Virus record (IMG/VR): IMGVR_UViG_3300003691_000012
Coordinates: 1-47,422 of that record
Reading direction: 5' to 3' (one strand)
Origin: a virus
Length of the DNA stretch: 47,422 nt
The notes below the pieces were generated by a model. It was not told where the DNA came from and did not search any database. It worked only from the letters and a program-made list of their open reading frames with translations. The position numbers were made by a program, and so were the translations under genes. Shown in pieces: positions 7,384-42,039 of the stretch (position 1 is the stretch's first letter; each line of letters begins with the position of its first letter).

Positions 7384-8769
7384 TTATTTAGTTGAAATAG
7401 TGATTGTGGCTTTACCAGCCTTAGTCACTCTATTCGTACTAAAATCTACGTTAACAGGATAGGGATAAACCGTAACCTTAGTTTCAACATAGATAGGTTC
7501 AATGGTACCAGTACTACCTGCACACATTACCCATGTAGCTGAAGTATTTTTACTAGCAAATATTCCATTGGGTTCTGCCTGTTCAGTGATAGCAATAACA
7601 CCAAAATGCTTATCTTTGTAACCTACTTTTAGTGGGTTAGTTAAACTAGTATCGTAGTGTATGATTTCACCAAAATTTACTTTAGCTCTTTTGTTGTCCA
7701 CGCAAATCCATACTACCGGATAGCCTGGGTCTTCTCTGATAGCACTGCACTCTAAATCTGAAAATACAATTAACACAGTTGGCTTAGTTTTCTCATAGTA
7801 TTTAAATACCGGTGTCAGATTAGTCCCACCTCTACCTGAGAATCCTACTCCCTGCATTGTGTCATCAGCACTTAGCTTATGTACCACATGAATTTTGGTA
7901 TCAAAATCTATGATGGTTGTTAATGCTGGGTTCAATGTTTCCTTAATGTAATTAATTTCAGAAAGGAAAGCTCTGAACTGTTCATCACTCACTGAGCAGC
8001 TTGTATCGACTGCTACGCATATTTCACCTAAACTTTCACTAAACAGACTAGGTAAATAATACTCGGGCATGAAGCGTCTATTTGGCCACCTCCACGAGAA
8101 GTCATCTGCTGCAAAACTACTCATGTAATTTTGTAGGATAACCTGCCATGGTAATACTGGGTCAATTAACTCATCCAACATGATTTTCACATCATTCGGA
8201 ATAGAGCCATAAGCTTCAGGACTCTTCATACGGGCACGAGTTGCAGCTTTGGTTATGATTTCTTTAACAGCTTGCTGTACATCATCCTCGGTGCCTTTCT
8301 TTGGGCTACGAATATCACAGTCAAATCCATCACTGGAACCATTACCATTTTTCTTTGGTGTAGGGGGTAATAATTTATATACTTGTTCAGTGGACATATC
8401 ACGATACTGTGGGTCATGTAATCCATTAGGCGGGAGTTTGAATCCACTGGCTAGGAGCATTAAATTAATCACATGGTCAGCAGCTTTGTTATAGCGTTCG
8501 CCATCAAGATGCTGTCCACGGAATATATGATTAAATGCTACATGCCATGCTTCGTGAGCCATTAATCCAACACGCTGTTCTAATGTTAGTGGTTCCCAAA
8601 ATTTAGGACTCATTCCAATGACAGTGCCATCGGTGTAAGCTGTCTTACATGACTCGTCCCATACAAATTTTAATGAGAATAATATGGAGGAAATGAACGC
8701 ACTATTGTTCGCAGCCATTAAAGCAATTTTTACTTTATTATATGACTTATCTAATTCTTGCTGATTCAT
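7384..8769 (-). CDS. metallopeptidase-like / VWA domain protein (N4 gp25-like)
   Basis: The 461-residue protein has two parts. The N-terminal half carries a zinc-peptidase-like motif AHEAWHVAFNH (HExxH, residues 72-76), the DUF2201 type. The C-terminal half is a von Willebrand factor A fold with a MIDAS motif VAVDTSCS near residue 254 and a later SDLECS strand. In N4 and relatives such a protein is encoded next to a MoxR ATPase; these pairs act like RavA/ViaA chaperone-type machines, although the phage target is not known. It starts 9 bases after the ATPase stop, so the two are surely one unit. A strong terminator follows. Confidence 0.92.
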   Translation of the reverse strand: MNQQELDKSYNKVKIALMAANNSAFISSILFSLKFVWDESCKTAYTDGTVIGMSPKFWEPLTLEQRVGLMAHEAWHVAFNHIFRGQHLDGERYNKAADHVINLMLLASGFKLPPNGLHDPQYRDMSTEQVYKLLPPTPKKNGNGSSDGFDCDIRSPKKGTEDDVQQAVKEIITKAATRARMKSPEAYGSIPNDVKIMLDELIDPVLPWQVILQNYMSSFAADDFSWRWPNRRFMPEYYLPSLFSESLGEICVAVDTSCSVSDEQFRAFLSEINYIKETLNPALTTIIDFDTKIHVVHKLSADDTMQGVGFSGRGGTNLTPVFKYYEKTKPTVLIVFSDLECSAIREDPGYPVVWICVDNKRAKVNFGEIIHYDTSLTNPLKVGYKDKHFGVIAITEQAEPNGIFASKNTSATWVMCAGSTGTIEPIYVETKVTVYPYPVNVDFSTNRVTKAGKATITISTK

Positions 8770-24201: not shown

Positions 24202-24897
24202 ATGGCTTTTGATTTAGAGCTAGAACAATTTAGGAAAGTAGTACCTAAGCATATGTCATCTGTGGTCAATCAGCCAATGGTCGATAAGATTAATGGTTTA
24301 TTTACTGACCAAATTCTTAGGGAAAATTATAGAGATAATTTGCTTTCGTTTGCTAGTGTAATGGAACAGGGTAAATTTAAAATGAACTCGTATGTTGATG
24401 CAGTTCGTTATATTAGTTGTAAGTTAATGGGAGCTAATAATATTCAGGCTTACATTAAAACTTTCCCTGACCGGCATTTATCATTTATTCAAAATGGTAC
24501 CTCTGAGAAGGACATTGCCAGTTATGTGGCTGCGTTCAATAAAGGTAAATTAGTTAATTTGGTTCGAGAGCAGTCAATGATTGCTCCTTGTATATTTAAT
24601 GCTGATATTTTCCAAAAAGCTATTAATGTTCAGGCAAGTCTTATGGTTGATGAGGATGTTAGTCCTAAGGTTCGCTCGGATGCAGCGAATTCTTTGCTTA
24701 CGCACCTTAAACCGCCTGAGAGTGCCAAGGTTGAATTGGACATCACAGTCAAACAAGGAAGCGTCATCGATGAATTACGGGCTACAACAGCAAAACTAGC
24801 GCAGCAGCAGATGATTAACCTCGACTCGGGTGGGCACAGTATTAAGCAGATTGCTGATTCAGATATTATTGAAGGGGAATTTGAAGATAATGCCTAG
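24202..24897 (+). CDS. terminase small subunit (N4 gp69-like)
   Basis: The 231-residue protein lies directly before the large subunit and overlaps its start. It has helical DNA-binding and oligomerisation-type segments (QFRKVVPKHMSSVVNQPM; ISCKLMGANNIQAYIKTFPD; EKDIASYVAAFNKGKLV), a segment SLMVDEDVSPKVRSDAANSL typical of small terminases that pre-form rings, and a long charged tail ending EFEDNA. It recognises the genome for packaging. The ATG follows a T-run; its only Shine-Dalgarno is within the upstream hairpin. Confidence 0.85.
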   Translation: MAFDLELEQFRKVVPKHMSSVVNQPMVDKINGLFTDQILRENYRDNLLSFASVMEQGKFKMNSYVDAVRYISCKLMGANNIQAYIKTFPDRHLSFIQNGTSEKDIASYVAAFNKGKLVNLVREQSMIAPCIFNADIFQKAINVQASLMVDEDVSPKVRSDAANSLLTHLKPPESAKVELDITVKQGSVIDELRATTAKLAQQQMINLDSGGHSIKQIADSDIIEGEFEDNA

Positions 24898-27526
24898 AAT
24901 TAAAAAAACAGTTGAAACTTATCTGAATGAAATTGTCTACGGCTCTGATGCAGGCTATACGCCCACTGAGTTTTCCTTTGATTTTATTAATTTTATTAAA
25001 CTGGTTAATGGAGCTCAAGGGGAAGAGCATAAATCTCCAATTGTTCACTATCGAATGCTGGATAAAGTGCCGGGCAAGTCCCAGAAAATAATTAATATGT
25101 GTTCTCGTGGTTTAGCAAAAACTACTGTCCTCGGGGAGTACTTATTTTTGTATATTGCCGTTTACGGTAAGATTCCTGGCTTTGGTAAGATTAACTTAGC
25201 ACTCTATGTTTCAGATAGTATTGAGAATGGTGTTAAGAATATGCGTAAAAATTTGGAATACCGTTGGGAGAATAGTGCATTTCTTCAGCAGTACTTACCT
25301 CACACAAGATTCACTGATGTTCGTTGGGAATTTAAAAATGCTGATGGAGTTGTCTTCATTGTAAAAGGATATGGTGCAAAAGCTCTTAGTTTAGATACTA
25401 AAGTTATTATGCTGAATGGTTCACATAAAACTATTAAGGATGTGGCTATTGGAGACTATGTTATGTCGCCTTTAGGTTACCAAAGTAAAGTAGTAGATAA
25501 GAGTAATGTGTTCAACAGACCTATGTATCACATAAAACTAGAAGATGGTAGGAATATTAAAGTGTGTGAGGAACATCTCAATGCAGTCACAGTGAAACGT
25601 AACCCGAATAACACTGCTAGTTATGAGGATGCGGTGTTAGATACAAAAGAGTTACTTGAATTAGATTTACAGCATATACGTATTAGGAAGCGCAAAGGCA
25701 AAGTTCCTTACATATCCAAGGAAAACTTAGTATTCATTAAAAATACTAAGCCTGTACAATTTTCACCAAAAAAATATGATATAGACCCATATACTTTAGG
25801 ATTGTTACTAGGGGACGGTTCCTTAAAGAAAGACGGAAGCTGTATTCTACATACACATGTAGATGACTTACCTAATTATATATTAAGCTTGCCTGATAAT
25901 TTAGGAAAGCCCTATTTAGATAAACGCAATGGAACTGTTATGTCTATTGCGATTAAAGGGATTAGTCAATATGTGAGAGATTTACATTTAAACGGTGTGC
26001 ATGGCGATTTTAAGTTTATTCCCCCTAAGTACCTAACAGGTAGCATAAAACAACGCATGAATATACTACAAGGTTTACTAGATACAGACGGTTGCATACA
26101 AAAAAATGGTAGGATGGATTTTTGTAGCAACTCTGAGCAACTGGTGGATAATGTCAGCACATTGGTTAGAAGTTTAGGTGGTACTACTAAGAAACGAAGA
26201 GTAAAAAAAGCTTTTCGTATTGAAATATGGATAGGCATTTGTCCTTTTCGTTTACCACGTAAAGTTAATAGATTTACCGGTACTAGGACAAAATCTCTTG
26301 TGGCAATCAGGAGGATTACTCCTATATCAAGTGAACCAAGTCAGTGTATTAAAGTGGAATCTGTTATGCCTACTGGTACGGATGAAGATAGTCAATTTTT
26401 AGTTAACGATTATTTCCGTACCCACAATACTGGTGTTCGTGGAGCAAAGGAGATGGGAGTTCGTCCACAGTTAGCAGTATTGGATGATTTGGTTTCAGAT
26501 GAAGATGCCCGCTCGGATACAGTCATTGAATCGATAGAATCAACGGTGAACAAGGCAGTTAACTTTGCATTACACCCAACTAACTCTAAAACTATTTGGT
26601 CAGGTACTCCCTTTAATGCAAAAGACCCATTGTACAAAGCAGTTGAATCAGGAGCATGGAATGTTTCAGTATTTCCAGTTTGTCAGGAATTTCCTTGCAC
26701 TCGGGAAGAATTTCGCGGGGCATGGGAAGATAGATTCGACTATGATTATGTGAAAGCTCAATATAATTTTGCTATGGACCAAGGTAAGGTACGAGATTTT
26801 AACCAAGAATTAATGTTACGTATTATGAGTGATGATGACAGACTAATTCAGGATTATGATATTAGTTATTACTTTAAACGCATGGTTACAGACTATCGAG
26901 GCTCGTACAATTTTTATATAACTACTGATTTTGCAACAAGTGAAAAAGCTTCAGCTGATTTTAGTGTTATCTCAGTTTGGGCCTATAATAGTAATGGCGA
27001 TTGGTTTTGGGTTGATGGTATATGTAAAAAGCAGGGCATGGGGGATAATATAAATGATTTATTTCGCTTGGCTCAAGAGTACAAACCCCAACAAGTTGGC
27101 GTAGAAGTTTCTGGACAACAGGGAGGATTCATACCTTGGATTCAGGAGCAAATGTTAGTCAGAAAAATTATGTTTAATCTGGCTTCGGAAAATAACTCTA
27201 ACAAACCAGGTATTCGCCCCAACACCAATAAAATGGAAAGATTCTTAATCATGGAGCCCATGTTTAAGATGAATAAAATCTTTTTTCCTGAGGATAGACT
27301 AAATACACCGGACATGCTTGAAGCCATGAATGAATTAAGATTAGTGGCTAGAAGTGGTTTCAAAAGTAAGCATGACGATTTCGTGGATACCATCTCAATG
27401 TTGGGTAGCTTGACTCCGTGGAAACCATCTGAGGAAATTACGGGTAAAGTGAACAAGGGCACGGGTCATTGGGAAAATTGGGATGAAGATGACGAGTACT
27501 CTGATTTAGATTCCTATATTGACTAG
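24890..27526 (+). CDS. terminase large subunit with intein (N4 gp68-like)
   Basis: The ATG at 24890 overlaps the small subunit stop and is preferred to an upstream GTG. The 878-residue precursor contains a 349-residue intein; the mature ATPase/nuclease would be 529 residues, normal for the family. The N-extein has a Walker A-type CSRGLAKTTVL near residue 70; the C-extein opens with TGVRGAKEMG, then Walker B LAVLDDLVSDEDARSD. The nuclease part begins FYITTDFATSEKASADFSV with its metal-binding Asp, and ends with a conserved HDDFVDTISMLG. It cuts and pumps DNA into the prohead. Confidence 0.92.
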   Translation: MPRIKKTVETYLNEIVYGSDAGYTPTEFSFDFINFIKLVNGAQGEEHKSPIVHYRMLDKVPGKSQKIINMCSRGLAKTTVLGEYLFLYIAVYGKIPGFGKINLALYVSDSIENGVKNMRKNLEYRWENSAFLQQYLPHTRFTDVRWEFKNADGVVFIVKGYGAKALSLDTKVIMLNGSHKTIKDVAIGDYVMSPLGYQSKVVDKSNVFNRPMYHIKLEDGRNIKVCEEHLNAVTVKRNPNNTASYEDAVLDTKELLELDLQHIRIRKRKGKVPYISKENLVFIKNTKPVQFSPKKYDIDPYTLGLLLGDGSLKKDGSCILHTHVDDLPNYILSLPDNLGKPYLDKRNGTVMSIAIKGISQYVRDLHLNGVHGDFKFIPPKYLTGSIKQRMNILQGLLDTDGCIQKNGRMDFCSNSEQLVDNVSTLVRSLGGTTKKRRVKKAFRIEIWIGICPFRLPRKVNRFTGTRTKSLVAIRRITPISSEPSQCIKVESVMPTGTDEDSQFLVNDYFRTHNTGVRGAKEMGVRPQLAVLDDLVSDEDARSDTVIESIESTVNKAVNFALHPTNSKTIWSGTPFNAKDPLYKAVESGAWNVSVFPVCQEFPCTREEFRGAWEDRFDYDYVKAQYNFAMDQGKVRDFNQELMLRIMSDDDRLIQDYDISYYFKRMVTDYRGSYNFYITTDFATSEKASADFSVISVWAYNSNGDWFWVDGICKKQGMGDNINDLFRLAQEYKPQQVGVEVSGQQGGFIPWIQEQMLVRKIMFNLASENNSNKPGIRPNTNKMERFLIMEPMFKMNKIFFPEDRLNTPDMLEAMNELRLVARSGFKSKHDDFVDTISMLGSLTPWKPSEEITGKVNKGTGHWENWDEDDEYSDLDSYID
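25382..26428 (+). mobile_element. LAGLIDADG intein (349 aa) in the terminase, lacking Cys1/Ser1
   Basis: Best limits: after GYGAK and before TGVRGAKE. The intein starts ALSLDTKVIMLNG, where other inteins have C-L-S-x-D-T, so residue 1 is Ala. Two LAGLIDADG motifs, LGLLLGDGS (139-147) and LQGLLDTDG (229-237), mark a homing endonuclease. The C-terminal end has C322 in CIKVESV (block F), F-R-T-H-N (T347, H348, N349) and Thr as +1. Ala1, block F Cys, Thr at G:5 and Thr+1 fit class 3 inteins, but the block B Trp is replaced by Asn (HLNAV, 65-69). If Ser3 were residue 1, two extra residues (AL) would remain in the extein. Confidence 0.85.
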
Positions 27527-27565: not shown

Positions 27566-28276
27566 ATGCTATTAACAGAAATTTTTGAGAATTTGCAGTA
27601 TGGCGAGTTCTCTATGCTAAATATTGGCGGAGGTGTTTGTGGTGATGGAATACAAAAACCCCAATACCCTGCTCTGATAAGTCATCTCAATGTTGCACTA
27701 ACCCAATTGCATAAAAAATTCCCACTGATACAAAAAGCAGCGACAATTATACAAGATGAAACTATTAATATTTACTACTTGGATAGTGCTTACGCGGCCT
27801 CGAATACAGATAGTGCTGCACCTATAAAATATATTTTAGATACTGAAGCAGACCCATTTGAAGATTTAGTTTTTAAAATTGAAAGAATAGAAGATGAGGA
27901 AGGTTGTGAGTTAGTAGTCGATGACGAATCAGACCCAGACTCGCTATTCATCCCAACGTTCAAAACTATTCAGGTTCCTTTCCCAGTTCAAGGGGAAGCA
28001 CTAGGTGTGGTTTATCGTGCCAATTACCCCAAAATTTCCCATATTGGTTTAGAGCCAGAAAATACTGTAATTGATATTTCGGATAGTCTTCTTCTCCCAT
28101 TGTTGTATTTCATGGCACACCGTGCATATGCTGGTAAGCCACCGATTGATGGTGTTGATAATAGTGCAGTTTATTTTGCCAAATACCAGGCAGCAGTTAA
28201 TGAAATAAACGAGTTAGATTTAGTTCACAGTGATACAGTTGTTAACACAAAATTGGATGATAATGGATGGGCATAA
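27566..28276 (+). CDS. structural/connector-like protein (236 aa), N4 gp67 position
   Basis: The protein follows the large terminase, the place of N4 gp67. It starts MLLTEIFENLQYGEFSMLNI, has alternating helix and strand segments with an acidic stretch (EDEEGCELVVDDESDPDS), and a C-terminal helix (LLLPLLYFMAHRAYAG). The pattern recalls head-tail connectors of short-tailed phages but no motif is decisive; the assignment rests on gene order. GGAATTC precedes the ATG. It overlaps the giant fibre gene by 10 bases. Confidence 0.6.
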   Translation: MLLTEIFENLQYGEFSMLNIGGGVCGDGIQKPQYPALISHLNVALTQLHKKFPLIQKAATIIQDETINIYYLDSAYAASNTDSAAPIKYILDTEADPFEDLVFKIERIEDEEGCELVVDDESDPDSLFIPTFKTIQVPFPVQGEALGVVYRANYPKISHIGLEPENTVIDISDSLLLPLLYFMAHRAYAGKPPIDGVDNSAVYFAKYQAAVNEINELDLVHSDTVVNTKLDDNGWA

Positions 28277-31200
28277 GCAGCAAGCTAAATTGCCAAGGTG
28301 GAGCTAAACATTCCAATGTTGGCGGAGTCAAAAAGTATGTAGATACTGCTTTTGATGATATACAAAAAGTTGCTAATAATTTAGAAAAATTATTAGAACT
28401 TAACGAAACCTTCCAGAATCTTAATGGAATATACTTAGGTGCCTATGCAACATCCCCAATACGAAGACCTGATGGGGGACTATTACAAAATGGTGACCAT
28501 TATCTAAATACAGGCACCAGTTTACTTTATGTTCATTTAGATGGAAATTGGATATATCACTCAATATTCTTTACACAATCCTCTTTAAATCAAGCAGTAG
28601 CGCAGGGTCCCTATAATATTTGGATTGCCTATGCTGATGATAATGTGGGTAACGGTATTTCACTAAATCCTGATGGTAAGTCTTATACCGGTTTTGCTAA
28701 TAATCAGATAACAAATGTTGTGGCTGTCCACGATGCTTCTGTTTTTACTTGGAGTAAATCGATTGGCGTGGATGGAGTTAATTCTTACATTCACATAGCC
28801 TATGCTAACTCTCCTGATGGTACTACTGATTTCAGTACAGTTGGTGGTAATTATTTAGGTATTTATGTTGATGTAAATGTTGCAGCCTCTACCGACCCAA
28901 CTCTCTATAATTGGAATTTAATTAAGGGAGCTGATGGATTAAGTGGTAATACTGGTTTATCTGGAGTTGACGGTACCAGTGTTATTGTTACTGATTTAGG
29001 TGGTGGTAGAATTTCTATTTCTGATGGCGTTAGTACTGTTTTTCTTGATGATGGTGAGATTCCAACTCTTATTGATAATGGTGATGGAACCTACACGATT
29101 ACTTCAGGTATTGAGTCAGTAACTGTTTCTGATGGATTAACTCCGCTAAACGGTATCGATTATTTTGATGGAAATAATGGTGATTATATTTCCTTTGTTT
29201 ATGCCAATGTCCCGAAAGGGGCTGCGGCACCAGTCATTGATGCAGGTAGTGGTACTTGGAATGGTACTGTAGAAACTTATCCTACTGGTGCATCTTGGGG
29301 AGACAATGCTACTTTCGTTGAAGGTGAAACTACTTATTTATCTACCAATAGGTATGCTCATAATATTGCCAATGACACTTGGGCACTAAGAAATAACGTA
29401 TGGTCAATTCCTTCAATTTTTATTGATAAACCAGATGATGCTTCACAAGGCCAGATTAAATCTTTTGCCTTTTTAAGAAGTGCAACACAGCCATTAGTGG
29501 CCCCGACTGGAGGAAGTTTTTTAAATCCAAATCCAACAACCGGAGGTTGGTCGGATGGGATTCCTGCAGGTACGCTACCCATTTGGGTAGTTACCGCAGT
29601 ATTTACCTCGGATGGGGCAGCACCGCAGAATGCGGGCGACCCAGTTCCGTGGAGTACACCGGTTTTATTGGCTGAGAATGGTATTGGGTTTAAACACAGA
29701 TTTAGTGCTAATGAGACTGGCCCATGGTCAGATACCCCGAGTACTACAGATGAATGGATGATTACTAGTGTAAGAGACTCTGCAGGTATTTGGGTAGATG
29801 ACACAACTAACCCTATTAGGATTAAAGGCGAAACAGGTGCTTCATTACAAACAAGCGTAAGGTCTTTCGCATTTAAGCGTTCCAGTGACCCAGTTTTTGT
29901 AGAAACACCAACAGGAGGGGATTTCAGTTCCCCTAATCCAGTAGATGATGTTGTGACTGGGTGGACTGATGGGATACCAACAGGAACAGATAGACTTTAC
30001 GTTTCAACTAGATTATTTACTTCTGATGGTTTAACCCCTCAACACTCTGCTTGGGCAGAGAGTCAGGTATTCTCTTATAACGGTACTGGTTTTAGAACAA
30101 GATTTAGTGTTGATGGGATAACTAACTGGCACTTAGAGCCAACAGTTTTTGATGTTTATATGTGGCCACAAACTAGCTCAGATGGCGGAGTAACTTGGAC
30201 AGATGTTGGTGACCCAATAAAGATTAAAGGCGAATCTGGATTTGGTTCTGTCGAGTTAGATTTTTCTCCTGGTTTAATTGGCGGGGCTGCTGATTTTATA
30301 TTCACTCTAAATGCCACAGCAGGTGGGACAGTTACGAATAGTGAAATAAGAATACAGGGCTCAAAATTTCAACATCCCGATGGAAGTGAGAGAACAACAC
30401 AAACGGATACTCAAGTGAATACTCCTTATGGGGACACAGTTGCAGGTAAATTTTACTTAATGTGGACTGATGAATCTAACGTAACTAGATTTAATCTTAG
30501 CATTGGTAATGCCACAAATATTGTACCTATAAGAATTAATGCTGCAAACGATGGTTGGGAAGTATTTGATAACCTCGGGGCATTTGAAGCATTCACTCCA
30601 ATTATTACAGATTGTATTATTGCAACAGCTACCGCGAGTAATGCTACTGGTGGGCTTAGTTCAATTAGTCCACTGGTTAGTGGTGTGGCTGGAGCAGGTG
30701 GTGTTGGTGATGTAGGGGCTTCTGGTAATAGTGTGGCTCAGCTAACTATTTATCGGAGAAGTGCAACTTTACCCGCTACCCCAACTGGGGGCTCATTTAG
30801 TTTCGACAATTTATTAATCACCCCTCCAACTGATTGGAGTGCAGCAGTAGTTGCTGGAAGTGAGCCATTATACGCAAGTGTTGGTATTGCGTCGACAACA
30901 GGAACTTCTGGAGTAGATTCAGGAATTGTTTGGGGAGCACCAGATATAATTGCCCAAGACGGAAGCACTGGGCCAACAGGTGCCACTGGCTTACAAGGAC
31001 TTCAGGGTGACGCTGGTACTGATGGTATTGCAGGTGTAAATAATTACTTCCACATTGCTTATGCAGATGATATTACTGGGACTGGATTCAGCCAAGACCC
31101 AACAGGCAAAACACACATTGGTACTTACGTTGATGCTATTGAAGCAGATGCTGTCAGTGGAGATGCTCTTTGGAATTGGCAATTAGTGCAAGGCGAAAAT

Positions 31201-33969
31201 GGTGCCAACGGTGACCAAGGTATTCCTGGAATTGATGGTGCTACTGGAGAAACCTCTTATCTTCATATCGCTTATGCAAATACTGCCACTGGTTCAAGTG
31301 GTTTCAGTACAACTGATTCAGTAAATAAGAGCTATATTGGGCAATACACAGATTTTATATCCGCAGACTCGAATGACTCAACATTTTATTCATGGACACT
31401 AATTAGAGGTACTGATGGGACAGACGGTACTAATGGTATAAATGGTGATGACGGAATTACAGGTCGGTCAGTATTTCAGGGAAATATTTATAGACGCTCT
31501 GCAACTGCCCCAGCTACTCCTAGTGCTAATAGCGGCTCATTTGATTTTGGAACAAATGTACTAACACCTCCTGCTAACTGGGATTCGTTTGTACCGGCAG
31601 GAACTAATCCACTTTATGTCTCAACAGCTACATTTTCCATTGTTGGAGACACTGGTGTTGACTCAACACAAACATGGACAACACCCGAAATTGCATACCA
31701 AAATGGAACTAATAGCATTTATGTCAATAAATTTGAAACAGTCACGGAACAAAATGATTTTATTGTTGAATCAGGAAGTAAGTCAGTTTCGGCTGATAGT
31801 TACTCAGGTTCAAACGCAATTGAGTTATCAAGTGATGTTGATTCATCATCGGATGATTCCTCAGGAAATGGAAACACTGCTTATTTGACAATCCCAGAAG
31901 ATTTGGCGCTATTGTTTGCTGGCCAAAATGTTGTTGTTTCGTTTATTGTCAAGCAAGGGAGTGACCCATCAGCAAACTTTTCAGTTGCTTATTCTACAGC
32001 TGATAATGGTAACAGTGGTTTTCATTCATTTGTACCAACAGCTACTTATACTAAGTTTAGCTTTGATTATTTAGTGCCTTTACCTAATCTTAACGGTACT
32101 GATATTATAATTTTTAATGCCGATGAGTCCGGCACAAATAAACAAATTTTGATTGATGATGTAAAAGTAGTAATAAAAGGTGATGCAGGCGCTGATGGAC
32201 TAAGTACTTATATGTACAACGTATTCCAGAGAGCCTCATCTGCTCCTGCTACGCCTTCTGGCGGTAGCTATAACTTTGGTACCAATAATGGCGCACCTCC
32301 CTCTGGATGGACTAATGACGCTCCTGCTGGCACTAATCCCCTTTATATAAGTTCTGCCTTGGCCAGTGTAACCGGAGCTACAGGAACTGATTCAGGTTTA
32401 ACTTGGACAACTCCTGTAATTTTTGCAAGGGATGGTGTGGTTGGTCCTGATGGTGATAGAGGAACTAAGCATTACTATACAACCACTACTGCTAATGGTT
32501 GGTCTAGTACTATTGCAAATGATTTTATCATTGCACAGGGAGATACAAAATCAGTTTGGGATGTTGTGACAATTTCAGACAGTGCAAACGGCTTTTCAGA
32601 AACACGTTATTGGAGTGGTTCTGCTTGGTTGACGATATCAGAAGTCATAGATGGTAACTTAATAGTTATAGGTACCATTTCTGCCAATGCTATAGTGGCA
32701 AATAGTATCACTGCTAACGAAATTGCGGCAAATGCAATTACCGCTAATGAGATAGCCGCTAACAGTATTACTGCCACAGAGATTGCAGCTAATACAATCA
32801 CAGCTGGCCAGATATCTGCTAATGCCATAAATACTTCTGAATTAAATGCGAATTCAGTAACAGCAGTAAAAATAGCAACAGATTCTGTGATAGCTAGGCA
32901 CATATTAGCAGGTGAAATAAATGCTACTCATATTGCAACAGAGTCATTAACAGCAGAACTCATATCATCTGATGCGATACAAGCTAGACACCTATCCATT
33001 TCCTCTGATTCAGCCGAAAATGGTAATGACTCTGGGGTTAGTATGGTATTGAATCCATATGCCGCATCACCATTTACTATAACAGATAGTGGGGGCGATT
33101 TAGTTTTTGCTATACAATTACAAGATGACCAACCAAGAGCAACAGTGGTAGGAAGTGCAAGTATAGGTTTCGTTGACACTGCAGACGCTATTACTGATGC
33201 AGTAAAGAAAAGCATTAACCCGTTTTACTTAGGAGCTGGAGCAAGCAGTATAGGCGCTACTGGTGATTTAACTAATGGACAAATAAGGACAGTTTCCATA
33301 AACCCAGGAGAGGCTGGACTAGTCTCGGGTAGTTTAGTTTTAGCTGCAAGTGGTTGGGAAGGTGGGAACACTAGTGCAAATTATACGACTCCTGTTTGGG
33401 GAATACGAGTTCAGAATGTAACCACAGGTGATTACCTAATAGGCACTGCGGCTAATGCAGTAAATTACACAGGAACTTCTTCAAATTTCCCAGAGGGAGA
33501 AGATTTCTTAGAAAATTGGATTAGTTCATATAATATAAATATAAATATAGGTTTTGTGGATGAGTCTCCTAATGCCAATGTAAATAATAGTTATCGTCTA
33601 ACCGTAACATACGTTAGTGGGACACCCACAGCAATAACACAGAGTCTGTTTAACCTGTCTACACCTAGTGTATCACTAGGCAATTCACTTGATACTGTGG
33701 GCGGTAATGGTGGGTTTTCTTGGACGGATAAAGACACAGGATTTACTGTTAAGAGTGGGACTAGATTTTTGAATGCATCAAGTACAACACTTATTAGTTT
33801 CTCAGATGCCTTCACCACAATATGGTCTGCAACTGCCACATGTAATAGTACACAAAATAACCAATGGGATTATGGCACTATAACTGGATTTGGTAATGGC
33901 TCAATTAGTATAAGAAATAATGACTTGTCTTCACATACATTTAGATGGATTGCCACAGGAATAGTATAA
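28267..33969 (+). CDS. giant tail fibre/appendage protein with collagen-like and repeat domains (1900 aa)
   Basis: The largest gene of the window. After an N-terminal adaptor-like part (GAKHSNVGGVKKYVDTAFDD), two modules alternate: a 'Y-x-H-I-A-Y-A-[DN]' unit (copies near residues 115, 175, 930, 1000) and an 'R-[SA]-x-x-x-P-x-x-P-x-G-G-S-F ... W' unit (at least five copies). Short collagen-like G-x-Y runs lie at about 898-925, 975-998 and 1048-1066. Residues 1475-1545 have a ten-residue repeat (N-x-I-T-A-x-E-I-A-A) like the J-protein/DUF1983 stalk. The C-terminal 350 residues are a distinct tip. It probably binds the host surface. Confidence 0.82.
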   Translation: MGISSKLNCQGGAKHSNVGGVKKYVDTAFDDIQKVANNLEKLLELNETFQNLNGIYLGAYATSPIRRPDGGLLQNGDHYLNTGTSLLYVHLDGNWIYHSIFFTQSSLNQAVAQGPYNIWIAYADDNVGNGISLNPDGKSYTGFANNQITNVVAVHDASVFTWSKSIGVDGVNSYIHIAYANSPDGTTDFSTVGGNYLGIYVDVNVAASTDPTLYNWNLIKGADGLSGNTGLSGVDGTSVIVTDLGGGRISISDGVSTVFLDDGEIPTLIDNGDGTYTITSGIESVTVSDGLTPLNGIDYFDGNNGDYISFVYANVPKGAAAPVIDAGSGTWNGTVETYPTGASWGDNATFVEGETTYLSTNRYAHNIANDTWALRNNVWSIPSIFIDKPDDASQGQIKSFAFLRSATQPLVAPTGGSFLNPNPTTGGWSDGIPAGTLPIWVVTAVFTSDGAAPQNAGDPVPWSTPVLLAENGIGFKHRFSANETGPWSDTPSTTDEWMITSVRDSAGIWVDDTTNPIRIKGETGASLQTSVRSFAFKRSSDPVFVETPTGGDFSSPNPVDDVVTGWTDGIPTGTDRLYVSTRLFTSDGLTPQHSAWAESQVFSYNGTGFRTRFSVDGITNWHLEPTVFDVYMWPQTSSDGGVTWTDVGDPIKIKGESGFGSVELDFSPGLIGGAADFIFTLNATAGGTVTNSEIRIQGSKFQHPDGSERTTQTDTQVNTPYGDTVAGKFYLMWTDESNVTRFNLSIGNATNIVPIRINAANDGWEVFDNLGAFEAFTPIITDCIIATATASNATGGLSSISPLVSGVAGAGGVGDVGASGNSVAQLTIYRRSATLPATPTGGSFSFDNLLITPPTDWSAAVVAGSEPLYASVGIASTTGTSGVDSGIVWGAPDIIAQDGSTGPTGATGLQGLQGDAGTDGIAGVNNYFHIAYADDITGTGFSQDPTGKTHIGTYVDAIEADAVSGDALWNWQLVQGENGANGDQGIPGIDGATGETSYLHIAYANTATGSSGFSTTDSVNKSYIGQYTDFISADSNDSTFYSWTLIRGTDGTDGTNGINGDDGITGRSVFQGNIYRRSATAPATPSANSGSFDFGTNVLTPPANWDSFVPAGTNPLYVSTATFSIVGDTGVDSTQTWTTPEIAYQNGTNSIYVNKFETVTEQNDFIVESGSKSVSADSYSGSNAIELSSDVDSSSDDSSGNGNTAYLTIPEDLALLFAGQNVVVSFIVKQGSDPSANFSVAYSTADNGNSGFHSFVPTATYTKFSFDYLVPLPNLNGTDIIIFNADESGTNKQILIDDVKVVIKGDAGADGLSTYMYNVFQRASSAPATPSGGSYNFGTNNGAPPSGWTNDAPAGTNPLYISSALASVTGATGTDSGLTWTTPVIFARDGVVGPDGDRGTKHYYTTTTANGWSSTIANDFIIAQGDTKSVWDVVTISDSANGFSETRYWSGSAWLTISEVIDGNLIVIGTISANAIVANSITANEIAANAITANEIAANSITATEIAANTITAGQISANAINTSELNANSVTAVKIATDSVIARHILAGEINATHIATESLTAELISSDAIQARHLSISSDSAENGNDSGVSMVLNPYAASPFTITDSGGDLVFAIQLQDDQPRATVVGSASIGFVDTADAITDAVKKSINPFYLGAGASSIGATGDLTNGQIRTVSINPGEAGLVSGSLVLAASGWEGGNTSANYTTPVWGIRVQNVTTGDYLIGTAANAVNYTGTSSNFPEGEDFLENWISSYNININIGFVDESPNANVNNSYRLTVTYVSGTPTAITQSLFNLSTPSVSLGNSLDTVGGNGGFSWTDKDTGFTVKSGTRFLNASSTTLISFSDAFTTIWSATATCNSTQNNQWDYGTITGFGNGSISIRNNDLSSHTFRWIATGIV

Positions 33970-36913: not shown

Positions 36914-37825
36914 ATGACTCTTGCTATAGTCAATACATCAGCAACCATTGCAGCAGATAATGTAAATAATGTATTCAGTTCGCAAGATTCTGCTAATTCT
37001 CCTACTTGGAGAGTGGCTAACCTAGTTGCAGGCACCCTAGTCAATTTAGGCACTGGAACAAATACCTCAGATGTAAATTACAATCCTTTCACAAAAAGAT
37101 TTGGCTTCATTCGAAATAACTTTGCTGCCTATACTGAAATCTCTGAATCAGATATTGTCAATTCTGTGGCTTCTCCCACACTAATTAGAGTGGTAACCCT
37201 TAATGGTATGTTTGGTGATGACTCAGAAGGTTTATCAGATGTTGTTCCAAATTTTAGTGAAGGTGGTTATGAATTCTGGTCATGTATAGAAAATGGCGGA
37301 AGAGTACAGGCTTACAATTTCCAAATAAGTGAAGGGGACATGTTTAGTACATCCCCTATCACAATAACCGCTAGGCAAGAATTAACAGTGGCTCCTACCC
37401 AAACAGACAACAACTCTGGTGCGGAAGGGGTGGATATGCACCTTTGGGAACAAAAATTGATAGTGGTACAGGAGGGGCAACAAGTCAACACTCCTCAAGC
37501 CATTTATGAAATGGATAGGCCAGTTGATAGATTTACTGACTATGATGCGGCAGTAGATGCCCAACTAATTGTAGCTGAGCCATGGGATGCAGCAGCACAA
37601 ACTGGTGATTTATCCAGTTGTGTTTACCATGCAGCATCAGATACTATTTTAATACTTTCCGATACCGGTAATGCTGTTTATCAATATGATAGAACTGGTA
37701 CCTTACTAAGCACTTTCACAATTGTTGGTATGGGACAACCAGAAGGTATATGCTTTCATGGAGATAATCTTATTATCATGGGTGAAGCAGATGAGTGCAT
37801 GTACTGCACATATGTGGTGGCATAA
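36914..37825 (+). CDS. beta-propeller protein, SdiA-regulated/YjiK-like (303 aa)
   Basis: The product has propeller-type repeats; the C-terminal part DLSSCVYHAASDTILILSDT then NAVYQYDRTGTLLSTFTIVG and QPEGICFHGDNLIIMGEAD matches the SdiA-regulated (YjiK) six-blade pattern with its E-G-I motif. It has no signal peptide. Between structural genes it is most likely a virion tail appendage that binds sugars or calcium, but the family is otherwise bacterial and periplasmic, so this use is unusual. Its stop overlaps the next ATG (TAATG). Confidence 0.7.
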   Translation: MTLAIVNTSATIAADNVNNVFSSQDSANSPTWRVANLVAGTLVNLGTGTNTSDVNYNPFTKRFGFIRNNFAAYTEISESDIVNSVASPTLIRVVTLNGMFGDDSEGLSDVVPNFSEGGYEFWSCIENGGRVQAYNFQISEGDMFSTSPITITARQELTVAPTQTDNNSGAEGVDMHLWEQKLIVVQEGQQVNTPQAIYEMDRPVDRFTDYDAAVDAQLIVAEPWDAAAQTGDLSSCVYHAASDTILILSDTGNAVYQYDRTGTLLSTFTIVGMGQPEGICFHGDNLIIMGEADECMYCTYVVA

Positions 37826-40800
37826 TGAGTGACTTTATATCAGGTGCATTAATACCTACTGGCAACAATTACACAGTAGGCGCAAATGGTGATTTTTTAA
37901 TATGGTTACCATTTGGGTACAGTGTTGGTGCCAATACCACATTAACTCAATCGTTTGGTGGAGTAGCGTTAACTGAGCAACAAGATGAATCTACTGATAT
38001 TGCTGGTAATGGGGACCCTGTTATTGCATTAGGGTATTTATCTTCTCCCGCCTTAACCGCACAAGCTCTAGTTGCAACATGGAGCAGTAACCCAGTTCTC
38101 ACATCTGGCTATGCTTTTTCATTCCAAAATGTTGACATCGCTGCACCGATAAGACCCGGGGTCAATGGAAGCGACTCAGCTACTTATGGTGCCACAAACA
38201 CACCAGCATTAACTTACTCAGCAGTGGCAGGCGATACAGTATTTTATTATAAATATCATTGCACAAATGGAAGCAGTACCTTAGCACTACCTACTGGTTT
38301 CACGTTAATAGATAACACAGTATTATTAACCACTCCTGCGTATAGACAAGTATCTTATTACTACAAAAAAATTACCGTAGATGAGACATTAGTTTCAATT
38401 GGTGCAGATACTTCCGGTAGTTCAGCTGTTGGTGGTGCTCATGGTTTCGTAGTATTGAAACTTGCCGAGGCTCCGACTGGCGTTAATATTGGGACAGTTG
38501 ATACAGATAATGTAGTTGAGATTGGACAGACATTAATTAATACTCCTGGTTCTGGGTATGAAGCAGTACAAGGAACAGGCACCGTAATAATTAGCCCAAC
38601 TGATAATATTGCTGATGCAAATGCTGTCACATTGACTGCTACATCTTGGGCAGATGAATTAATAGAATTTACTATACCCACATCACTGTCAATGTTGTAT
38701 GGGACAGTTTACCTATTCATCACTAATAATACTGGAGAAGTGAATGCAGCAGGTAAATCACTATCACTGGTTCCCCCTGTATTAAATGATTACTTGGTTA
38801 TTAGAGAACAAAATGATTTAGGAATATTAAAAGATATAGTTGGCTTAGCGTTAGAGGCTGACCAACTAGAATACCAAAAATTGTCTGCCAATGGCGGTAC
38901 AGTTTATATGGGCGTATCTGGTACATATTATATTTATGATTACCCAGCAAATGCTGTTACCTCGACTGATACAATTTTATTTAGATTAGGTGATGCGTCA
39001 GATGGCACATGGTCATCAATTGGTTTAACTAATTTCTCTGTTGGGGCTGCAGCAAACATAAGCGGTACTATTAACCAAACAATGAACGGATTCACTCAAG
39101 TAGCAGTGGGCACAGTTGTTGTTGGTGGGGTTACTGGAACCATTAGCCAGAATATGAATAGCTATTCTCAAAATGCTACTGGCACTGTTGCACAAAATAG
39201 TATCACTGGTGTTATTGCTCAAATAATGAGTGGGTTTACTCAGGCAGCAGTAGGCGGTCTTACTGGTCACGATGTTACTGCTACCATCACCCAAACTATG
39301 ACAGGATTTAGTCAAGTTGCTATTGGTACCCTTGGAATAGCTCCTGCTATTACTCAACCACCGCATGCAACTATTGCAAAAAATAGTACATTTAATTACA
39401 CACCAAGTTTAGCAAGTGGTGCTGATGTTTTATGGTTTAAGGAATATGGTCCAGATGATTTAATAGTTGACCCTGAGACTGGGGCAATAACCTGGGATAC
39501 TACTAGCTTACCTCGGGGACAAGGCGTAAGAATAACATTAGGTTGTTCAAATTTTGTCGGAGAAGACTTAAAAACTTTTGTAGTTCATGTCGATGAATTA
39601 GGTACCTCGAAGTTAATGTTAATGAATGGGGCTGTTGATGTTGCTGGCGGTACACCGACAACCGTGGCCACAACTATTCGAGCAGCCGCTACAGAAATAA
39701 ATAGCGGAGATACTTTAATTATTCCTGATGGTTCATTCTTCGCATCTATAGTTTCTCAGAATAGCGGAGAGAATACTTGGGATGAGCAAAACCTAAATGA
39801 TTTACCAACTGGTTTATCTAATCAACACACTTCAGTAATGTCTGAAGGATATACAATAATTGATGCAGCTCCTCATGATTCAATTGCCCGTGATGACAAA
39901 GGCTTACAATCTGGCCCAACTAATACCGGTGAGTTCTATAAATTCAGTGGAATTGAGTGGACTGGCTCAAACAGAGGTCCAGTAGTATTTCGTTCCAATG
40001 GAGCAGTGTTAGATTTTTGTGGTGGTACTGATGGTAGTTATGCAGTAACTCCAACGACCCAAGTAGAAGCTGATGCAGCATTTGCAAACATAGCCGGTAC
40101 TTATATCGGTGGAAATTGCTTAGCAGAAAATTGCTTTGGGTTCGGTGATGCTAGATATATTTTTCAAGCAGGTAATCGAGTAACATCTTCTTCGTTCAAT
40201 AGATGTATAGCTCGCCCAGATGAATATAATGGTACTAACCCTCGTGGTGGTATTATCCATTATGCTGTTGACCAATCTGGTACTTTCTCTAGTTTTGTTA
40301 TCGATGGTGACCAAGAGCATTTGTCTCCATTTTATAATAACTATGCTGGTGCATTTGGTATGCCCGCCACCGGAAATGAAACATGGGCACAGTTCCAGTT
40401 AATGCGTGGTTGCGCTTCCATCAATGTTGACATGAACTCAATATTAAATGACTCCAACTCAGCAACAAATCTACTAACTATAGAAGATTTCCTATTATTG
40501 GATACCACTAATACAGTAACTCCTTGGACTCATGCTACTTCTTTAATGGGAATACAGAGTGACTCTCAGATGACTGTATCTCGTTTATCTATGTCTGAAA
40601 CACATAGATGGGATTTTGATGCTACCACTGGAGCAAATTTCTTTGGTGCATCTACAGGTAGTGTAATTAATGGCGCAATATTTGATAGATTGGGCTGGGA
40701 TGGTGTATCAGCAACAATTGACATAGCAGATTTAGTTGGTAGTGATACCACAGTAGATAATGCAAATATTTACGACTTTAAAGGAAGTATAGATGCTCTA

Positions 40801-42039
40801 GGTAGCTCAACCCCAACTACCACTGTCACATTAACTAACCCAAAAGATAATGGCTGGGATTACCCAGTTAGAGCTGAGTCAGGTTCTCCAATTGCTATAG
40901 CAGGACAGGCGGCTGACTTAACTAGATTTGCTGCACCATCTTCATTATTACCAACTGACACTGGTTGGGATACAGCAACTAATGAGTGGGCTTGGCCACA
41001 CCCAGAAGAACAGCATATTGCTGCTAGAATGAGAACTTATAGTAAAACTGGAATGGCAGTAAGAAATCCAACTGCTAGTACTAACCCAGTTGATTTAACA
41101 GGTACCATAACTGGTAATCGTGGTTTTGCTGCAACTGGTGAATCATTTTCTGAATATATTTGGGGACAGTTTGGAAGAACAGTTCCACCCCTTCGAGTAG
41201 CAGCGACTACAACTGGGACTGGTGAAGTAACTTTGCGTGTAGGTCGATACCGGTCAACTCGTGGCGACACAATTACCAAGTTCAATGTGTATGAAACATC
41301 AGATTTAATTAATCCAGTTGGTTCAGTAACAGGTGGACTAAAAGTAGTATTATCTGGCGTAGCAGGTGGTGCACATACCTACATAATTAAAGCAGTTGAT
41401 GCATCTCAGCTTAGTGCTTGGGGTGCTAACGAAACAGGTGAATCTGGTCCATCCAGAGAAATGACAGTAACGGTGTCTGCATTGGCTGGCCCTGCTGGTG
41501 GAATAAGTCAGACTATGAGTGGATTCACTCAAGTTGCAACTGGCACAGTGGCACCACAGGCACCGATTGACGGTACAATAACTCAAACTATGAACCAGTT
41601 TAGTCAGTCTGCAACTGGCGTATTAGCTGCTTCTTTGGTTGTTGGTACTATCAATCAAACTATGAGTTCTTTTGTCCAAGTAGCCGTAGGTGGGCTTACC
41701 CAGTCAGGTATGAATGGAACCATAGCATTGACCATGAATGGCTTTACTCAAGATGCTAATGGAACCATTACCAAAAATAACATAAATGGTACTATTTCCC
41801 AGACAATGAAGCCGTTCTCTCAGCAATTAATTGAGAGAGTTCCTGATACCATTAGACAAACAATGAATAATTTCAGTCAGTCAATGTCTGGAGTAATTAC
41901 CACAGTAAATATAGGTACGATAACCCAGACTATGAATTCGTTTGAGACATCGATGATAGGTAGTATTTACACTCCGCCTGAAATACCAGTACTGACTACT
42001 ATAAATAAAAACAGTATACTTACTGCTATTAACAAATAA
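37825..42039 (+). CDS. giant repeat-rich tail appendage/tailspike (1404 aa)
   Basis: An N-terminal part (about 1-330) of jelly-roll character is followed by repeat cluster 1 (about 411-505), a region reading IRAAATEINSGDTLIIPDGS near 615-630 that begins a probable right-handed beta-helix (about 608-1060), a fibronectin III-like domain (about 1122-1218, HTYIIKAVDASQLSAWG), and repeat cluster 2 (about 1223-1385). The beta-helix with EWTGSNRGPVVF and AENCFGFGDARYIFQAGNR recalls polysaccharide-binding or -cleaving tailspikes. Catalytic residues are not identifiable. It probably forms a trimeric spike. Confidence 0.72.
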   Translation: MSDFISGALIPTGNNYTVGANGDFLIWLPFGYSVGANTTLTQSFGGVALTEQQDESTDIAGNGDPVIALGYLSSPALTAQALVATWSSNPVLTSGYAFSFQNVDIAAPIRPGVNGSDSATYGATNTPALTYSAVAGDTVFYYKYHCTNGSSTLALPTGFTLIDNTVLLTTPAYRQVSYYYKKITVDETLVSIGADTSGSSAVGGAHGFVVLKLAEAPTGVNIGTVDTDNVVEIGQTLINTPGSGYEAVQGTGTVIISPTDNIADANAVTLTATSWADELIEFTIPTSLSMLYGTVYLFITNNTGEVNAAGKSLSLVPPVLNDYLVIREQNDLGILKDIVGLALEADQLEYQKLSANGGTVYMGVSGTYYIYDYPANAVTSTDTILFRLGDASDGTWSSIGLTNFSVGAAANISGTINQTMNGFTQVAVGTVVVGGVTGTISQNMNSYSQNATGTVAQNSITGVIAQIMSGFTQAAVGGLTGHDVTATITQTMTGFSQVAIGTLGIAPAITQPPHATIAKNSTFNYTPSLASGADVLWFKEYGPDDLIVDPETGAITWDTTSLPRGQGVRITLGCSNFVGEDLKTFVVHVDELGTSKLMLMNGAVDVAGGTPTTVATTIRAAATEINSGDTLIIPDGSFFASIVSQNSGENTWDEQNLNDLPTGLSNQHTSVMSEGYTIIDAAPHDSIARDDKGLQSGPTNTGEFYKFSGIEWTGSNRGPVVFRSNGAVLDFCGGTDGSYAVTPTTQVEADAAFANIAGTYIGGNCLAENCFGFGDARYIFQAGNRVTSSSFNRCIARPDEYNGTNPRGGIIHYAVDQSGTFSSFVIDGDQEHLSPFYNNYAGAFGMPATGNETWAQFQLMRGCASINVDMNSILNDSNSATNLLTIEDFLLLDTTNTVTPWTHATSLMGIQSDSQMTVSRLSMSETHRWDFDATTGANFFGASTGSVINGAIFDRLGWDGVSATIDIADLVGSDTTVDNANIYDFKGSIDALGSSTPTTTVTLTNPKDNGWDYPVRAESGSPIAIAGQAADLTRFAAPSSLLPTDTGWDTATNEWAWPHPEEQHIAARMRTYSKTGMAVRNPTASTNPVDLTGTITGNRGFAATGESFSEYIWGQFGRTVPPLRVAATTTGTGEVTLRVGRYRSTRGDTITKFNVYETSDLINPVGSVTGGLKVVLSGVAGGAHTYIIKAVDASQLSAWGANETGESGPSREMTVTVSALAGPAGGISQTMSGFTQVATGTVAPQAPIDGTITQTMNQFSQSATGVLAASLVVGTINQTMSSFVQVAVGGLTQSGMNGTIALTMNGFTQDANGTITKNNINGTISQTMKPFSQQLIERVPDTIRQTMNNFSQSMSGVITTVNIGTITQTMNSFETSMIGSIYTPPEIPVLTTINKNSILTAINK
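39058..39340 (+). repeat. protein repeat cluster 1: four copies of G-T-I-x-Q-T-M-x-x-F-x-Q-x-A-x-G
   Basis: Within the 1404-aa protein four copies follow at roughly 20-25 residues: SGTINQTMNGFTQVAVGTV, TGTISQNMNSYSQNATGTV, TGVIAQIMSGFTQAAVGGL and TATITQTMTGFSQVAIGTL. DNA identity is lower than protein identity, so the repeats are old. Confidence 0.8.
41494..41980 (+). repeat. protein repeat cluster 2: seven copies of the same unit
   Basis: The unit recurs seven times near the C-terminus: GGISQTMSGFTQVATG, GTITQTMNQFSQSATG, GTINQTMSSFVQVAVG, GTIALTMNGFTQDANG, GTISQTMKPFSQQLIE, DTIRQTMNNFSQSMSG, GTITQTMNSFETSMIG. Spacing varies from about 18 to 24 residues. Confidence 0.8.

Follow-up and report, generated by a model that had tools for sequence, protein, structure and literature searches.

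The large terminase gene of this virus carries an intein that we consider, with a probability of roughly 0.8, to be an active, mobile element of the rare class 3 type in an N4-like phage terminase, with asparagine (Asn67) at block position B:12, where class 3 inteins normally have a tryptophan regarded as almost indispensable. The reading draws on the intein junctions, on a census and phylogeny of related inteins in which asparagine at B:12 marks a single clade, and on Vibrio phage records whose terminases contain members of that clade.

Terminase gene and intein junctions

The sequence analysed is a 47,422-base IMG/VR virus record, hereafter the window. The PHROG terminase large subunit family phrog_38 matches both exteins of the interrupted gene (E values of 7e-13 and 1e-75), and the C-extein is 68% identical to the terminase of the N4-like phage pYD6-A; homology along both exteins places the protein among the large terminases (TerL) of the Schitoviridae, the N4-like phages. 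The features of the gene, in window coordinates, are as follows.

24890..27526, plus strand: large terminase (TerL, N4 gp68-like) gene with intein; 878-aa precursor, predicted spliced product of 529 aa
24890..25381, plus strand: N-extein, 164 aa, with GYGAK at its end (alignment to intein-free TerL)
25106..25126, plus strand: RGLAKTT, which we take to be the Walker A-type motif of the terminase (alignment and sequence)
25382..26428, plus strand: intein, 349 aa, Ala1 to Asn349, open throughout (translation, empty-site alignments)
25382..25384, plus strand: Ala1, without a nucleophile at residue 1 (junction alignment; Ala in 55/58 Asn-type inteins)
25574..25576, plus strand: His65, block B:10 (invariant, 168/168)
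25580..25582, plus strand: Asn67 (AAT), block B:12, where class 3 has Trp (alignment, codon)
25793..25825, plus strand: first LAGLIDADG motif, TLGLLLGDGSL (sequence; Pfam LAGLIDADG_3 in the intein)
26066..26092, plus strand: second LAGLIDADG motif, LQGLLDTDG (Pfam LAGLIDADG_3, intein residues 225-276, 34.2 bits against a cut-off of 22.5)
26345..26347, plus strand: Cys322, block F:4, predicted first nucleophile (Cys in 145/145 distinct relatives)
26420..26428, plus strand: Thr347-His348-Asn349, block G:5-G:7 (145/145)
26429..27523, plus strand: C-extein, 365 aa, beginning Thr+1-G-V-R-G (alignment and PHROG match)
26477-26491, plus strand: VLDDL, presumably Walker B (sequence)

The intein translation starts with ALSLDT and ends with THN, and the next codon, ACT, encodes Thr+1. 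A preliminary description, made from the sequence, had read the Ala start, Cys322 in block F, the Thr before the terminal His-Asn, Thr+1 and the replacement of the block B Trp by Asn67 as a class 3-like layout, and translation and profile alignment bear it out in every detail visible in sequence. The two LAGLIDADG motifs predict a homing endonuclease domain. Cys62 is also present, and the sole Trp of the whole intein, W283, lies outside the splicing blocks.

That description had also raised the possibility of an extra Ala-Leu in the extein, which would make Ser the first residue of the intein, and had proposed alignment with intein-free N4-type terminases. In four such terminases (pYD6-A, pVa5, MIF8 and L15) GYGAK-TGVRG, or a close variant, runs without a gap and without Ala-Leu, so Ala, not Ser, is residue 1. 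When the window flanks were joined across the site, the resulting peptide matched 474 of 50,697 phage records; in 473 of these the match covers at least 80% of the peptide in one place, and the site is therefore empty there. The GYGAK/TGVRG junction had thus been placed exactly, but its assignment to the conserved ATPase site requires adjustment: the intein lies downstream of RGLAKTT, the presumed Walker A-type motif, before T-G-V-R-G and 16 residues ahead of VLDDL.

Elsewhere in the window, a 1,900-aa open reading frame with collagen-like Gly-rich stretches (28267-33969) probably encodes a tail fibre or similar protein, the product of 7384-8769 on the minus strand matches the HNH endonuclease family phrog_1314 (E value of 3e-125), and a 1,414-aa open reading frame (37795-42039) has no PHROG match at E 0.001.

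Asparagine at B:12 among related inteins

A similar intein was found in 672 phage records in the phage-record search, every one less than 60% identical to that of the window. Five Vibrio phage records were examined, out of 39 Vibrio rows among the matches listed; their inteins also have Asn at B:12 and occupy the site RGxAK/TT inside the Walker A-type motif. A first scan of IMG/VR contigs recovered loci that share the window's insertion site at 70%, 65% and 39% identity, each of which has Asn, together with two more remote ones that have Trp. Scanning IMG/VR contigs with an Asn-group profile yielded 77 loci, none with an internal stop within the match; of the two patterns used, only one included the B:12 residue, and the 36 loci found by the other alone comprise 16 with Asn and 20 with Trp. 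A scan with C-terminal blocks, blind to B:12, returned 80 loci, seven of them with Asn, and a genome-contig search for relatives gave three.

Profile alignment assigned B:12 in 168 of 169 sequences, as Trp in 95, Asn in 73 and nothing else. Two loci lacking a C-terminal end (L091 and L093) were dropped and identical inteins merged (166 to 145), which left 145 distinct complete inteins, 87 with Trp and 58 with Asn at B:12, counts that represent samples of best matches and not natural frequencies. His at B:10, Cys at F:4, Thr at G:5 and the terminal His-Asn are present in all 145, and within the Asn group Ala1 and Thr+1 are found in 55 and 56 of 58 members, respectively. In what was sampled, Asn-type inteins reside only in N4-like terminases, at the sites GYGAK/TGVRG (44 of 58), RGxAK/TT (13) and TGVRG/T (1). 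Two scans with distant Trp-type groups, in which 157 of 160 class 3-like loci could be scored, found Trp in 155, Phe in two and Asn in none, some of these loci overlapping the earlier set.

The 58 distinct Asn inteins rule out Asn67 as a private mutation or lesion, and the Asn inteins in Vibrio phage records rule out an artefact of metagenomic assembly. A compensating conserved Trp elsewhere is likewise ruled out, since 24 of the 58 Asn-type inteins lack Trp from both the first 110 and the last 50 residues.

Some individual inteins merit mention. The loci with Phe at B:12 are L231 and L245, both class 3-like. The Asn-type intein at the third terminase site, TGVRG/T (L110, 883-1941), is read with Pro as residue 1, and L047 and L071 combine the Asn with Ser at residue 1, where a nucleophile may exist. 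Three short Asn-type inteins, L084, L087 and L051 (270, 277 and 300 aa), perhaps have a reduced endonuclease domain.

With the B:12 column removed before tree building, the Asn inteins form one clade on one side of a branch, and the Trp/Asn switch is one change on the tree. Support for the Asn branch is an SH-aLRT of 99 in a tree of 130 rows, kept from the 145 at an 85% identity limit, and 100/99 in a tree of 67 of the 145, from which L110, L071, L092 and L141 were deliberately left out; in the latter the branch occurs in 100% of 200 bootstrap trees, the bootstrap being not fully settled. Because Trp is found in all other groups, the change on this unrooted tree probably ran from Trp to Asn. 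All three codon bases must change for this substitution, since Trp is encoded by TGG in 86 of 86 Trp types and Asn by AAT (37) or AAC (17) in 54 Asn types. The use of both Asn codons indicates that silent change is accepted at this position, while no replacement was seen. Where dS was usable (0.13-1.7), dN/dS was 0.06 (L055/L056), 0.09 (L006/L067) and 0.12 (L032/L035); it ranged from 0.13 to 0.58 in very close pairs with few changes and was 0.05 in two pairs at dS near 3, and in the other distant pairs, window/L017 included, dS was saturated.

Other positions differ between the groups along with B:12. Residue 14 is Trp, Phe or Tyr in the Trp group and mostly polar in the Asn group, residue 53 is Phe in 78/87 versus Leu in 56/58, residue 61 is Cys or Ala in 72/87 versus Val in 57/58, and residue 321 is mixed in the Trp group versus Gln in 57/58. 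The block F residue at window position 338 is Leu in 77/87 of the Trp group versus polar in 52/54 of the Asn group, the F:13/F:14 count having been made over all 87 Trp-type inteins and over 54 of the 58 Asn types (the window, L017, L018 and L069 were excluded because of block length). Tied as they are to a single tree event, these positions are only candidates for compensation, and they may be hitchhikers.

Class assignment and evidence for splicing

The intein has no Cys or Ser nucleophile at residue 1, the empty-site junction giving Ala1, and this sets it apart from class 1. It has Cys at F:4 (Cys322) and Thr at G:5 (Thr347), as class 3 inteins do, but Asn67 instead of the Trp at B:12 that belongs to their W-C-T (WCT) signature. 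The Cys at F:4 argues against class 2, in which the +1 residue attacks directly without a block F nucleophile. Judged by its sequence, the window intein is outside class 3 under the WCT signature and inside it under the wider criteria of a 2020 survey, which selected 1,701 class 3 inteins by the absence of Cys1 and the presence of Cys at F:4 alone (PMC7891396). Trp deviates in 6.1% of the class 3 inteins surveyed there, and Asn may already be listed among these deviations. The survey also describes the AceL NrdHF intein, in which Met occupies the position (MCT) and splicing follows class 3 chemistry. Class 3 inteins without the Trp are thus already known, and what appears to be new here is N-C-T instead of W-C-T; a search of the literature outside the founding class 3 papers and supplements found no description of the Asn B:12 clade.

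Among known systems, the WCT signature shows high conservation among the class 3 inteins of mycobacteriophages and actinobacteria (PMC5050341). WCT inteins (Mch and Msm DnaB-1, MP-Be DnaB, Bvi IcmO and phage TerL) have in common with the window intein the lack of a residue-1 nucleophile, Cys at F:4, His at B:10, Thr at G:5, the HINT fold and, in most, Ser or Thr at +1 and a LAGLIDADG domain, but they differ in having Trp at B:12. Mch DnaB1 even has the same numbering, with His65 and residue 67, and its Cys124, His65 and Thr143 resemble a protease triad (PMC7664689). The AceL NrdHF intein, for which class 3 chemistry has been shown, is alike in having a non-Trp residue at B:12; however, this residue is the hydrophobic Met, and the intein is split and lacks two catalytic His (PMC7891396), whereas the window intein has the polar Asn, is contiguous and keeps His348. 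The TerL intein of cholera phage VCO139 has Asn at B:12, resides in the same host gene family and is 38% identical to that of the window. The inteins of VCO139 and of the cholera phage JA1 interrupt the Walker A-type motif, some 90 residues before the insertion point used in the window, and the passages of PMC3670811 that describe them give no class.

An AlphaFold2 model built on an alignment of 82 sequences, from the window and IMG/VR, reached a mean pLDDT of 95.6 and a pTM of 0.93. The whole chain superimposes on PI-SceI (1jva; Z 28.7, rmsd 3.3 over 328), and the splicing domain on class 3 Msm DnaBi1 (6bs8; Z 19.5, rmsd 1.6 over 123), gp41-1 (6qaz; Z 19.5, 1.8 over 127) and Mch DnaB1 (6riy; Z 19.0, 1.9 over 128). 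Because gp41-1, called class 1 in PMC7664689, ties with the Msm DnaB intein, fold alone cannot separate class 3 from class 1. The best three matches in a PDB sequence-profile search are class 3 DnaB inteins.

The Vibrio phages bear on whether Asn-type inteins splice. Each of the five records has one terminase C-extein match, and the intein is in that only copy found; in the two Pariacacavirus records a further insertion cuts the C-extein match short. Given a single terminase match per record, these phages should obtain their packaging enzyme from the gene that carries the intein. VCO139 is one of the five and JA1 is its relative; both phages have been isolated and their large-terminase intein reported (PMC3670811). 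Since the intein interrupts the Walker A-type motif of the only terminase copy found and such phages multiply, the Asn-type inteins of Vibrio phages very probably splice, a conclusion that concerns the Walker A site and not that of the window. At least 473 of the 474 matching records have no insert at the window's site, and the argument from viability is therefore drawn from Asn inteins that are 38% identical and occupy a different site.

Vibrio phage records provided further observations. L015 and other D-series records label the terminase that holds the intein a DarB-like antirestriction protein, likely a misannotation. Vibrio phage 1.245.O (MG592610; L337, 1-2223) has a second terminase intein of class 1 appearance, running from Cys1 to VVVHN/C, whose halves are separate open reading frames with an out-of-frame HNH-like frame between them, which makes it a candidate for a natural intein split within its nuclease domain; the annotation of 1.238.B (L009) is similar to that of this second intein.

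Proposed mechanism and alternatives

Splicing of the N-C-T intein most likely follows the class 3 route. Cys322 in block F, helped by His65 and Thr347, would attack the Lys(-1)-Ala1 bond to form a branched thioester, the N-extein would be transferred to Thr+1, and cyclisation of Asn349 would free the intein and leave the terminase halves joined in a 529-aa protein. Asn67 would take over the structural role of Trp at B:12, perhaps accommodated by the changes at residues 338 (Leu to polar), 14 (aromatic to mostly polar), 53 (Phe to Leu) and 61 (Cys/Ala to Val). The LAGLIDADG domain would be expected to carry the intein into terminase genes that lack it.

A more direct part for Asn67 is conceivable but improbable. 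Located two residues after the catalytic His65 on the same strand, it could hydrogen-bond His65 or a reaction intermediate, such that a Cys322-His65-Thr347 centre supported by Asn would amount to a distinct class 3 chemistry, comparable to the Cys-His-Asn site of papain-type proteases. The preliminary description had left a choice between a new variant and impaired splicing. A decaying intein, with Asn67 as its lesion, would agree with the finding that replacing the B:12 Trp with Ala left only precursor in three class 3 inteins (PMC5222942). This explanation is very unlikely, however, as Asn does not vary across 58 distinct inteins, which in the first alignment are as little as about 36% identical to that of the window, going from TGG to AAY takes three base changes, the first profile scan returned 77 loci that are all free of stops inside the match, dN/dS is low, and in five Vibrio phage records the only terminase copy found bears an Asn intein; together with the conserved catalytic residues, this evidence favours a stable functional variant.

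There is similarly only a slim chance that Thr+1 attacks the N-terminal bond directly in a class 2-like manner and that Cys322 is not a nucleophile: Ala1 and Thr+1 are compatible with such an attack, but all 58 members of the Asn clade, which sits among class 3-like inteins in the trees, keep Cys at F:4 and Thr at G:5. Virtually no weight is left for an ordinary class 1 intein, for although ALS could be read as extein Ala-Leu followed by Ser1, the intein-free terminases refute that reading, and the third residue, Ser in 40 of the Asn-type inteins, is Ala in 13, Pro in four and Cys in one, or 18 of 58 in all.

The class 3-type route thus remains the preferred reading for the N-C-T intein. The B:12 Trp belongs to the signature used to recognise class 3 inteins, and a polar residue fixed in a natural clade suggests that this signature is not required. 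The accompanying changes in the Asn clade form a set open to testing by residue swaps. Searches that rely on the WCT signature would overlook a set of inteins in phage terminases.
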